From Archaeoglobales archaeon (GTDB lineage Archaea; Halobacteriota; Archaeoglobi; Archaeoglobales; Archaeoglobaceae), in assembly GCA_030055595.1 (NCBI GenBank), contig JASFYH010000001.1, positions 1 to 64,000 on the forward strand: a stretch of DNA of 64,000 nucleotides, in the 5' to 3' direction. Below the pieces are notes generated by a model. The model did not search any database. It was not told where the DNA came from and saw only the letters and a program-made list of their open reading frames with translations. A program made the translations under genes and the position numbers. Of this stretch, positions 558 to 8,623 are shown piece after piece; positions within the stretch are counted from its first letter, which is position 1; each line of letters opens with the position of its first letter.

Positions 558-2038
<1,481 letters not shown>

Positions 2039-2225
2039 TGGCGGGGATAAAGTGAATACGTCCCCTGCCTGCCAGTATGCTCTGCTGACAAGCCCCGCAT
2101 CAGACCGCAAAAGGTTTTGCGGTCCTCCTTTACTATACCGCGGATTAGAAACCACCCCCTCATTCAAAGCATCGCTCTGTCGGGGTCCTTGCTGGATCCG
2201 CGGTTATTTACGTGAAGTTGTCGTG
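2039..2225 (-). other. rRNA operon leader with 5' half of the 16S processing stem and hairpins
   Basis: This stretch of about 190 nt lies between the rRNA promoter and the 16S gene. It holds the upstream half of the 16S processing stem (2062-2093), which pairs with 520-549 in the spacer. A perfect 10-bp hairpin sits at 2103-2112/2115-2124, and a 9-bp inverted repeat (ACCGCGGAT type) at 2137-2145/2196-2204. No protein-coding gene is supported. The hairpins are seen directly; whether they act in antitermination or rRNA folding is unknown. Confidence 0.7.
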
Positions 2226-2245
2226 TAGTATATCATTACTCTTTT

Positions 2246-2256
2246 GGATTTATAAG
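2246..2256 (-). promoter_or_regulatory. rRNA operon TATA box
   Basis: On the minus strand this reads CTTATAAATCC, preceded by an A-rich stretch (CAAAAGT) in the position of a BRE. Transcription would start about 25 nt further on, near 2222-2225. It is the only strong TATA-like element upstream of 16S within the window. Confidence 0.65.
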
Positions 2257-2365
2257 ACTTTTGCTCAACTTGCTGAGGACTTTTGCATGTTCAATGAGTC
2301 TCATTAAATTTAGATCTATCTCCTGAAATCGCAAATCTTAAATAGTCTCTTTATCTTGAATTTTC

Positions 2366-3406
2366 ATGAGCTACGAAGTTTTAATGGAAAAACTTGGTTT
2401 TCCGAACTCTGAAAAGCTTAAAAAGATTTTAATGTATCTAATGGATGAAGAAAGTGCTCGAATTGCTTCTGCTCTACCCGGGAGCTTGGAAGAACTCTCT
2501 CAAAAACTGAGAATGGAAAGAGACAGAGTGAGAGAGATCCTTGAAAAACTCTTCTCAAAAGGAGTTGTTTTCCCAAAAGATTTCAAAAAAAGAGAATATT
2601 TCAGATTTGCAAGAGACATAATCCAATTACACGACTCCACACTTGCAAATAAGAATGTAAAAGATCCAGAATTTGCAAGACTTTGGAAAGAGTTTTTAGA
2701 CTCTGAAGGCTATCGTAAAATAGGTGAGATCCTTTCATCTTCCGGGATGAGGATCTGGAGAGTTATACCTGCTTATAATGCTATAAAAGACATTCCGGGC
2801 GTTTTACCTCAAGAGAATATAAAGGAACTCATAAAGGCTCAAGAGAGAATCGCTGTAGTCCCATGCTCATGTAGAAATCTCACAAGGCTAATTGAAGAGC
2901 CATGTAAACATACCGATGAGACTACTTGGCACTGTATACAGGTTGGGAGGGGGGCGGAATACGTTCTTGCAAAGAATGCCGGTGTTGAGATCTCATTAGA
3001 GGATGCTTTAAGACTTATAGAAAAGATCGAAGAAGACGGGTTGATCCACACATGGCCAAATACTTCAAAAATGGTCGATCCACGCATCACCGCTAACTGC
3101 AACTGCTGTGGCGACTGTTGCGAGTTTTTCCTCTCAGCAAGAGCTGCTGGTGTGGGTATAGGCAAAATTATCGAGAAGAGCAGGTATGAAGCTTTTGTCG
3201 AAGTTGAAAAATGCACTGGCTGTCAGACTTGCATTGAAAGGTGTCACTTCGATGCAATTGAGCTTTACAGACCTGAAGGTAGCAAGAAGTTCAAAGCTAA
3301 AGTTGTTGAAGAGAAGTGCTTTGGCTGTGGAGTTTGCGTTGTTGGGTGTAAGCAAAATGCAATAAAACTTAAAGCGGTCCGACCACCAGAGTTTATTTCG
3401 CAATAA
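2366..3406 (+). CDS. 4Fe-4S ferredoxin-type protein with N-terminal winged helix
   Basis: A 346-residue protein. Residues about 20-75 look like a winged helix-turn-helix. The middle has a cysteine cluster (C167, C169, C180, C190, and CNCCGDCC at 245-252). The C-terminus is a two-cluster ferredoxin with C283/C286/C289/C293 and C318/C321/C324/C328. This architecture suggests an iron-sulfur redox or sensing protein of the cytoplasm; the electron partner is unknown. A TATA-like CTTAAATAG at 2337-2345 lies about 25 nt before the ATG, so the message is probably leaderless. It could be a redox-responsive regulator, but that is inference. The HTH plus ferredoxin combination recurs in anaerobes. Confidence 0.8.
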   Translation: MSYEVLMEKLGFPNSEKLKKILMYLMDEESARIASALPGSLEELSQKLRMERDRVREILEKLFSKGVVFPKDFKKREYFRFARDIIQLHDSTLANKNVKDPEFARLWKEFLDSEGYRKIGEILSSSGMRIWRVIPAYNAIKDIPGVLPQENIKELIKAQERIAVVPCSCRNLTRLIEEPCKHTDETTWHCIQVGRGAEYVLAKNAGVEISLEDALRLIEKIEEDGLIHTWPNTSKMVDPRITANCNCCGDCCEFFLSARAAGVGIGKIIEKSRYEAFVEVEKCTGCQTCIERCHFDAIELYRPEGSKKFKAKVVEEKCFGCGVCVVGCKQNAIKLKAVRPPEFISQ

Positions 3407-5978: not shown

Positions 5979-6590
5979 ATGAAAACTTCTATATGCACTC
6001 CCTCCAAGTCTATTTCTGTGGCAACACTGGACATATATAGCTTTCAGCTACTTGTGACGCTCGTAAGCGCTTTAGGAGTCTCGTTTGTCCTTAAGGACTA
6101 TGTAGCCAGTGCTATCGCTGGACTTATCTTCAGAAAAGTGAAGCACATAAGACCAAATACGAGAATAAAGGTGATGGTGAACCCGGTGATAAAGGGAGAC
6201 GTTGTTGACATTGGCTGGTTTAGGACGACGCTTAAGGAAGTTGGGGATGGAGAAAGACTGCCAAGTGTCCACACTGGCAGAATTCTGAAGCTTCCGAACT
6301 TCTTCCTATTTAACAATCCCCTCGTGATCTATGGGGAAACGATCACAGACGAAGTCGTTGCCTACATAGAAGCCAAGAGATTTAACCCCTCATGCATTGA
6401 GCTAATGCGGAAAGCAATCGAAGAGGAAGGGCATAAGGTTGTCGAGGTAGGCGTTTTTCAGAAAGAGAACTATTTCATAGTCCACGGGATCTTTGAGAGC
6501 GATATAAGTGAGATGACAGATGTAAGGAGCAAGATCTTACTCAACTTCTTTAAGAAAGTAGAGGAAGCTTCAAAAAAGGCGGGAAGCTAA
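5979..6590 (+). CDS. Minimal MscS-like mechanosensitive channel protein
   Basis: A 203-residue protein. One hydrophobic segment at about 20-52 ends in a pattern like the pore-lining TM3 of MscS (small residues, then FVLKDYVASAIAGLIF). It is followed by the MscS beta domain at about 60-125, including RTTLKEVGDGERL and LPNFFLFNNPL. The usual TM1 and TM2 are absent, so the protein is shorter than the typical 270-290 residues. A 248-nt AT-rich intergenic region precedes it. A membrane location and channel or osmotic role follow from the family. Whether one helix is enough to form a channel, or the gene is a truncated relic, is open. Confidence 0.65.
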   Translation: MKTSICTPSKSISVATLDIYSFQLLVTLVSALGVSFVLKDYVASAIAGLIFRKVKHIRPNTRIKVMVNPVIKGDVVDIGWFRTTLKEVGDGERLPSVHTGRILKLPNFFLFNNPLVIYGETITDEVVAYIEAKRFNPSCIELMRKAIEEEGHKVVEVGVFQKENYFIVHGIFESDISEMTDVRSKILLNFFKKVEEASKKAGS

Positions 6591-7849
6591 AATTTTCTGT
6601 CCTTCTTTTTCATCTCGGGATAAAGGATCTCTTTTACAGAGTCGAGGAATCCCGAGTAAATGTGGGCATCAACTGCAAAGTGAGCATAGCTGTAATCGCT
6701 AAAACCTGTCAGCTCGGCGGCGTATTTTGTAAGCAGAGCAAATCCAAACATGTTTGCATGCATAGCTCCATAAGCGTCATTCGATCGCATGTAAAAGACT
6801 CCTCGAAGTTTTCCTCTATTGTTTAGAAACTGGTATCCTCTAAGGCATGGCGGGTCATTGCTAAGCAGATCCCATGGTCTTGAAATTCCAACGTAGCAAT
6901 CTCTTCTGCATTTGTCCTCCTTAAGCTTTCTTATGGCTTCAAATAGCTGATCAACCTTTATGGGATCCTTAGTGCAAAATCTGGCTCTCTCTGCATACGT
7001 ATATTCTTCTCCCTCCTTTAAAATGCTCTTCTCAACTCTCTCGAGCAATTTTTCTGCACAGATAACGTATTCGTGTGCGTAATCGATGCCATATCTCTCA
7101 GTGAAAGGAGCCTTGTCATGAAGTTTGTTCTCTTCGGGCTTTTTAACCTCTACAAAGAATCTATGGATGAACTTGCTCGTCTTCTGCCCTTCAAACATGT
7201 CCCACTCAGTCTCTTTGAATTTTCCATGGTTGTAAATGACTTCGAGAGCGGAATGCCATGCGGAAGAGATATAATCCTCAACCAAATGTGTTCCGAGCTC
7301 AGTATAACCGAAGATTTCTTCTTTTTGTTCTGAAATCAATTTTGCTTTGTTGAGATCCCTCTCGTAAATATGTGGAACGCCTACGAGCATAGCAATGCTC
7401 CCTTGGGGCAATGCGGTTTTTTCTGCAACGTTCTTCAAGGCAAAGGAGAGAAAGCGAAAATTCTGCTCGAAATAGTTGAAGCAGTCGAGTGAGCGAATGT
7501 AGGCGGTCAAATGCAGTTTTCCGTCAAAAAGAAATGATAGCTCGGTTATTGCTGGAGGATTTGGCGAGAAGGCTTCTTCTGGTCTCCAGATTGGGATTGA
7601 AACTCGCCTTGTAAATCTTCTCTCATTAAGCTTTTGAACCGCTATCTCAACGACTTCGTGAAATCTGCTCAGGTATTTCTCAGCGAAGTAGTCCTTAGGC
7701 ACTTCAGCATCTGTCGGGTTTTCGACAACCAAAAAGCTTGGACCAGTGCTAAGATAATTCCCGAACCTTGATCTGCAAAGAACACCGTTATCGAGAACTT
7801 TTCCAATTATCGCCTCTCTTGCCTCTCGCCAGTCCTTTGCTATGATCAT
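6587..7849 (-). CDS. Tandem-duplicated thymidylate-synthase-like protein
   Basis: A 420-residue protein made of two thymidylate synthase (TS)-like halves. The C-terminal half has the TS landmarks in order: R315/R316, catalytic PPCL (C335), RSND (355-358), N366, and D394/H396/Y398. The N-terminal half repeats them as R81/R82, PPAI (A100 in place of the cysteine), RSLD (119-122), N130, and H160/Y162. Spacings are the same within one residue, and Asn to His is exactly 30 in both. TS is normally an obligate homodimer whose paired arginines bind the neighbour's dUMP phosphate. This looks like a fused pseudo-dimer with one active and one dead site. Asn366 favours dUMP over dCMP. A TATA-like ATTTAAATC lies about 25 nt before the ATG. 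Confidence 0.75.
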   Translation of the reverse strand: MIIAKDWREAREAIIGKVLDNGVLCRSRFGNYLSTGPSFLVVENPTDAEVPKDYFAEKYLSRFHEVVEIAVQKLNERRFTRRVSIPIWRPEEAFSPNPPAITELSFLFDGKLHLTAYIRSLDCFNYFEQNFRFLSFALKNVAEKTALPQGSIAMLVGVPHIYERDLNKAKLISEQKEEIFGYTELGTHLVEDYISSAWHSALEVIYNHGKFKETEWDMFEGQKTSKFIHRFFVEVKKPEENKLHDKAPFTERYGIDYAHEYVICAEKLLERVEKSILKEGEEYTYAERARFCTKDPIKVDQLFEAIRKLKEDKCRRDCYVGISRPWDLLSNDPPCLRGYQFLNNRGKLRGVFYMRSNDAYGAMHANMFGFALLTKYAAELTGFSDYSYAHFAVDAHIYSGFLDSVKEILYPEMKKKDRKF

Positions 7850-7873
7850 CCTGACTCTGTAAAAATTGTTGAT

Positions 7874-8623
7874 TTAAATCTTTATCCACTGACAGGCATT
7901 GTTTATGCATGCACACCTCATCTGGCTGTGCTCATAGCATTCCCTCCACTCGCAAGTGGTCACGATCGGTTGCTCAAAAATGGATCTGCAGACCTGCCCT
8001 GAACAGCCGTCTAAAGTGCAGTCTTTATCGCTGTTGCATTTGCCAAATGTAGACCAGCCACAGAATTCAACACTCTTCTTTTCAAGCTTAACAGCTTCTC
8101 CCGAAAGGCTGACGAATTCAACTCCAAGATCTGTGGCGTTGAAGATCTTCACTTCCTTCTGGCAAAGACATCTTAGCAACAGTCCATCATAGTCTTTTTC
8201 GATCACTCTGTAAACTTCTCCCCTTTCAACCTTGATCTCATCGCTTCCGCAATTTACAGTTACGTAGGCTCTGATCATTCTTGCTTGGGAGTCATAAACG
8301 TAGTAGTTCTGATACCCTCGGGTTAAATCTGAGCAATTACCAACTTCAAATTGTAACTTAGCCCATTTCTGACCACATTCTCCTCTAAAGAAAGCCCATT
8401 CGTCGCATTCAGTTCCATCTGGAAAAATACAGATTCCAAGTTGCCCTTGAGGCGTCGACTCTATTTTATAGCTGTAGCCCATTTCCTTACAATGAACCGC
8501 CGCGGGATTCGGCAATCCCACATTATTCAGGGCATTCTTTCCGCTCTCAAGACTCAACTTAACGACTGTGGCTCCACAGACCGCTATGATCAACACCACC
8601 AAGTAGACGAGGATCTTGCCCAT
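7874..8623 (-). CDS. Exported cysteine-rich protein with DUF333 and eight-cysteine domain
   Basis: A 249-residue protein with an N-terminal hydrophobic signal or anchor (about 4-23). Residues about 39-84 match the DUF333 pattern (NPAAVHCKEMGY, then GICIFPDGTECDEW and FRGECG). Residues about 185-249 form an eight-cysteine cluster domain (CGWSTFGKC, CTLDGCSGQVC, TCEWRECY, CACINNACQW). It is probably anchored outside the cytoplasmic membrane with disulfide or metal-bound cysteines. The function of neither domain is known. A TATA-like CATAAATAAGG at about 8638-8648 lies just upstream of the ATG. The gene stands alone, downstream of the divergent marC promoter region. Confidence 0.75.
   Translation of the reverse strand: MGKILVYLVVLIIAVCGATVVKLSLESGKNALNNVGLPNPAAVHCKEMGYSYKIESTPQGQLGICIFPDGTECDEWAFFRGECGQKWAKLQFEVGNCSDLTRGYQNYYVYDSQARMIRAYVTVNCGSDEIKVERGEVYRVIEKDYDGLLLRCLCQKEVKIFNATDLGVEFVSLSGEAVKLEKKSVEFCGWSTFGKCNSDKDCTLDGCSGQVCRSIFEQPIVTTCEWRECYEHSQMRCACINNACQWIKI

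Follow-up and report, generated by a model that had tools for sequence, protein, structure and literature searches.

The window, i.e., the whole 64,000-nucleotide stretch of DNA analysed, belongs to an Archaeoglobales archaeon and carries a gene for a thymidylate synthase (TS) that contains two TS domains in a single chain. The preliminary description had placed an open reading frame of 420 residues with two TS copies at positions 6587–7849; the coordinates and the two copies were both confirmed, and the gene lies on the minus strand. It is divided as follows:

6587–7849, minus strand: two-domain TS gene, 420 residues
7280–7849, minus strand: N-terminal TS domain (N-half), residues 1–190, catalytically dead
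6590–7279, minus strand: C-terminal TS domain (C-half), residues 191–420, catalytically competent by sequence

The gene neighborhood contains a DUF333 protein, MarC, TctA, and a radical SAM protein, and no folate or nucleotide operon was found in it. At the start of the window, positions 1–2038 hold the 23S (5′ part) and 16S rRNA genes on the minus strand, and the small open reading frames listed there are spurious.

PF00303 is the only Pfam family detected in the 420-residue protein, and it is matched twice. The whole-chain score of 91.7 bits places the protein in the superfamily by the curated cut-off. Scanned alone, residues 1–193 matched PF00303 at residues 65–175 (E = 1.4e-8, 34.7 bits) and residues 194–420 matched it with E = 2e-16 (60.4 bits), both exceeding the Pfam cut-off of 24.3 bits. 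The family profiles of the two halves aligned with each other in hhalign over 173 columns (probability 98, E = 8e-14), and the profile of the N-half alone retrieved solved TS structures from the PDB (best E = 3.9e-11). These comparisons show that the two-half repeat is far beyond chance, and the first 210 residues, on whose TS homology the preliminary description had staked its reading, do carry it. The first half also adopts the TS fold, as had been anticipated: AlphaFold predicted the whole chain with a pLDDT of 94.2 and a pTM of 0.92 and the N-half alone with a pLDDT of 93.3, and Foldseek matched the N-half model to solved structures of TS and of dCMP/CMP hydroxymethylases (TM 0.63–0.77). 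The TS fold was seen in the full-length model as well, when it was compared with TS structures by Foldseek. The best curated family for the fused protein is the methanogen-type archaeal TS, TIGR03283 (E = 6.4e-27 for the C-half), which it resembles in its short TS form and its motifs; in the alignment, the C-half spans positions 7–195 of 201. However, the known form is a single-domain protein of ~220 residues, whereas the fused protein has two domains, one of them Cys-less, and scores 133.2 bits against the equivalog (NCBIfam) cut-off of 174.55 bits. It is therefore a relative of this equivalog and not a member.

Residues were compared among 47 fused proteins (43 from Archaeoglobi and four from another class), with Lactobacillus casei numbering transferred via ungapped alignments. 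The key positions are:

7604–7609, minus strand: R81-R82, equivalents of L. casei R178′/R179′ (Escherichia coli R126′/R127′), proposed to reach the C-half site; Arg at both in 47/47
7550–7552, minus strand: Ala100, in place of the catalytic Cys (C198); Ala in 42, Ser in three, Thr in two, Cys in 0/47
6899–6904, minus strand: R316-D317, equivalents of R178′/R179′ with the second arginine lost; R316 in 47/47, D317 varying by class
6845–6847, minus strand: catalytic Cys335 (C198 equivalent); 47/47
6752–6754, minus strand: Asn366, uracil-selecting (N229 equivalent); 47/47
6656–6664, minus strand: His396-x-Tyr398, deoxyribose contacts (H259/Y261 equivalents); 47/47

The C-half also has the equivalents of R218, S219, D221, and Y146 in all 47 proteins, R355/S356 being the phosphate Arg/Ser, and it unites the catalytic Cys, the uracil-selecting Asn, the HxY motif, and the phosphate Arg/Ser in one domain throughout. 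The second copy had been called complete. This holds for C335, N366, H396, and Y398, but not for the second phosphate arginine, which is Asp317. The variation of 19 or 20 residues reported in the motif spacing proved to be a register slip, since the ungapped alignment pairs R81-R82 with R316-D317 and not with R315-R316. At the D317 position, the 43 Archaeoglobi proteins have Asp (40), Asn (one), Thr (one), or X (one), and never Arg, whereas all four fusions of the other class have Arg. The C-halves of the other class retain both arginines, which indicates that the loss in Archaeoglobi is not ancestral.

In the N-half, the replacement of the catalytic Cys by Ala100 noted earlier extends to the whole set as Ala, Ser, or Thr, and the asymmetry of one live and one dead half is conserved across the 47 relatives; with no Cys in any N-half, the protein departs from the symmetric homodimer with two active sites typical of ThyA. 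The remaining N-half contacts are nevertheless kept: R119, S120, H160, Y162, and Y59 (equivalents of R218, S219, H259, Y261, and Y146) are invariant in all 47, and the N130 position is Asn or Asp in 46. The first copy indeed lacks the Asp before its His, as had been pointed out. Yet, this feature has no diagnostic value, as the Asp is also missing from Cys-bearing archaeal single-domain TSs (e.g., SVSAHIY) and, among the fusions of the other class, from the C-halves (NMHIY).

In TS, the R178′/R179′ pair extends into the active site of the other subunit (PMC6514825; PMC5981203), and without Arg127′ the enzyme performs poorly (PMC6514825). A dead half that keeps the pair needed by the live site, together with a live half that has relaxed its own pair, is what a pseudo-dimer predicts; the R315-R316 register had concealed this pattern. 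The complementary losses fit a single composite active site made from the chemistry of the C-half and the arginines of the N-half, and the earlier proposal that the first half donates phosphate-binding arginines gains strength from the loss of the second arginine in the C-half.

The genome of the window is 99% complete and contains thymidylate kinase; ThyX, thymidine kinase, and a second TS were looked for in it and none was found. The preliminary description had suggested checking for thyX, and its absence, like that of thymidine kinase, leaves the fused TS as the sole candidate for dTMP formation in this genome. Both dTMP synthesis and a related pyrimidine hydroxymethylation had been considered. 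Asn at the base-selecting position denotes a uracil-type enzyme, and a residue other than Asn denotes a dCMP/CMP hydroxymethylase; all fused proteins have Asn366. With N366 invariant and no other TS found, dTMP synthesis is most likely the job of the fused TS, and hydroxymethylation is disfavored. For the T of their DNA, Archaeoglobus-type archaea appear to rely on one protein that joins a working TS to a broken copy of it. Since Archaeoglobi use tetrahydromethanopterin (H4MPT), the one-carbon donor is probably methylene-tetrahydromethanopterin (methylene-H4MPT). Databases probably already label the fused proteins as thymidylate synthase. A search of an open-access library yielded neither activity data for any fused member nor a published description of the fused TS, which does not by itself prove the fused TS new. 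The window's contig also carries, at 158808–159188 (L128), a methyl-coenzyme M reductase (MCR) alpha sequence (E = 4e-65), unlike classical sulfate-reducing Archaeoglobus.

The two-domain form, which the preliminary description had proposed to seek in other archaeal genomes, is present in 45 of the 55 genomes of the window's family, including Archaeoglobi WYZ-LMO2 and JdFR-42, and in further families. Seven family genomes have ThyX and no fused protein (two in genus g4 and five in g12), and three incomplete ones (54–81%) have neither; every family genome that is at least 90% complete has a fused TS or ThyX. Both enzymes occur together in genus g13 (G040–G045) and two others, and the aligned g13 fused copies retain the C-half residues. 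One of the three incomplete drafts, G016 (genus g4, 72% complete; L050 and L117), contains three distinct single-domain TS genes and lacks the fused form; since the draft is incomplete, these may come from viruses or contamination.

Beyond the window's family, the fused protein occurs in one more family of its order (f2) and in three families that belong to another class (f17, f26, and f29), and no ThyX was found in any of the four. Family f3, which belongs to the window's class, has ThyX and no fused protein. Genomes of f2, f17, f26, and f29 contain two to four divergent MCR alpha genes, from which we infer that f17, f26, and f29 are alkane-oxidizing relatives of Syntrophoarchaeum. As stated in passages of PMC9894754 that make no mention of a fusion, ThyX displaced ThyA in ANME-1 and short-chain alkane oxidizers kept thyA. 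Genomes with two PF00303 matches elsewhere in the phylum were checked, other than G265, G279, G324, and G355. The two matches proved to be two separate genes in f21 and f13 and two copies of one single-domain gene in G389, and these were rejected as fused forms. A viral origin was likewise rejected: searching viral contigs with the fused-protein alignment yielded 14 relatives, and the five that were read are single-domain proteins with Cys.

A tree of 61 domains placed the 22 N-halves in one clade (support 100/98) and the 22 C-halves in another (100/97), and within each clade Archaeoglobi separate from the other class by a deep split in the same way. The fused state should therefore be older than this split, except in the case of a whole-gene move between the classes, so the fusion appears to be old. 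An arrangement of the N- and C-halves as sisters was not rejected (AU p = 0.43), and the tree favors neither internal duplication nor fusion of two paralogues as the probable origin. The mean pairwise identity is 0.63 for the C-half versus 0.44 for the N-half, with the C-half more conserved in 99.9% of pairs. Decay of the N-half is ruled out by purifying selection, its dN/dS being about 0.04–0.17. Among close pairs, a single patch of recombination was seen and none like it in the others: relative to L006 (G053), a 2.5-kb block (5979–8440) is ~94–95% identical outside one patch in the TS gene, which covers TS residues 1 to ~157 (7378–7849). Identity falls to 74% over 7311–7849, with synonymous sites near saturation, and the recombination patch lies inside the dead half.

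These data are best explained by a single-chain, pseudo-dimeric TS that serves as the only recognizable dTMP synthase of this archaeon, a reading to which we assign a probability of roughly 80%. Both halves would derive from the archaeal (methanogen-type) TS and, judging from the model confidence scores and the conservation pattern, would pack against each other as subunits do in a TS dimer. The C-half would bind and methylate dUMP, with C335 attacking C6, N366 reading the uracil, and R355/S356 and H396/Y398 holding the phosphate and the sugar. R81/R82 of the N-half would approach the dUMP phosphate in the C335 site from across the internal interface. Since the N-half has lost its reactivity, the cross-interface pair R316/D317 of the C-half would serve no live site and could relax, its second Arg becoming Asp in Archaeoglobi; the outcome would be one working site per chain. 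A more specific version is only tentative: an obligate single-chain, single-site TS shaped by complementary degeneration, in which neither half could work as a homodimer, since one lost its nucleophile and the other its cross-interface arginine, and the dead half would be both an arginine donor and a retained nucleotide-sensing pseudo-site. Counting against the single-chain reading are the other-class C-halves with both arginines, the score below the NCBIfam equivalog cut-off, and the invariance of R119, S120, H160, Y162, and Y59, of which a purely structural N-half has no obvious need.

That invariance is also an argument for a different use of the same fold and pairing, in which the N-half would be a regulatory pseudo-site that binds dUMP, dTMP, dTTP, or a pterin unreacted and tunes the C-half. 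The equivalents of its phosphate, sugar, and base contacts are invariant or almost so, half-the-sites behavior is known for TS (PMC5981203), and the other-class C-halves still present both arginines to the N-half site. In Archaeoglobi, however, this site would meet Asp317 in place of its second phosphate arginine, the N-half evolves much faster than the C-half, and a pairing of Asp317 with R119 as a phosphate mimic offers another cause of the conservation; a regulatory role is possible, but we would not expect it. Ordinary homodimerization through the C-halves, with the N-half as an appended domain of another role, would agree with the full catalytic set of the C-half and with the rule that TS homodimerizes. 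Yet, D317 would then occupy the place of R179′, and both the invariance of R81/R82 and the TS fold of the appended domain would be unexplained, which makes this arrangement unlikely. Least probable by far is that the protein is a dCMP or CMP hydroxymethylase and not a TS. Foldseek does place MilA (CMP hydroxymethylase) and a phage dCMP enzyme beside TS, but N366 is of the uracil type in all members, the closest curated model is the methanogen TS, and most of these genomes would otherwise be without a source of dTMP.

TS is the standard example of an obligate homodimer whose subunits share their active sites. The importance of its second site for activity (half-the-sites behavior) has long been debated and approached with engineered heterodimers. 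The fused protein resembles bacterial and eukaryotic ThyA (PF00303; E. coli and L. casei) in its fold, its catalytic residues, and, as proposed, in taking an arginine pair from the partner, whereas ThyA is a homodimer with two identical sites and the halves of the fused protein are asymmetric and covalently joined. Protist DHFR-TS fusions also join TS to a second domain, although the partner is a different enzyme and the TS part still homodimerizes. In E. coli heterodimers of wild-type and R126E/R127E subunits (subunit complementation), the one working site takes its arginines from the other subunit (PMC5981203), as it would in the fused protein; those heterodimers were engineered from separate chains, whereas the archaeal form is natural, fused, and old. 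Evolution seems to have done the heterodimer experiment, with an archaeal family and some related lineages apparently relying on a TS with one working site per chain. The fused TS is a ready system for studying cross-subunit catalysis and the origin of pseudoenzymes, and an accessible archaeal TS for the question of the one-carbon donor.

Another family of the phylum offers a related arrangement: in G363 (L126), the adjacent genes at 673–1923 and 1905–3290 encode a TS with Cys and a 417-residue protein whose C-terminus is TS-like but degenerate, lacking both Cys and RR; the two may represent an unfused counterpart of an active/dead pair.
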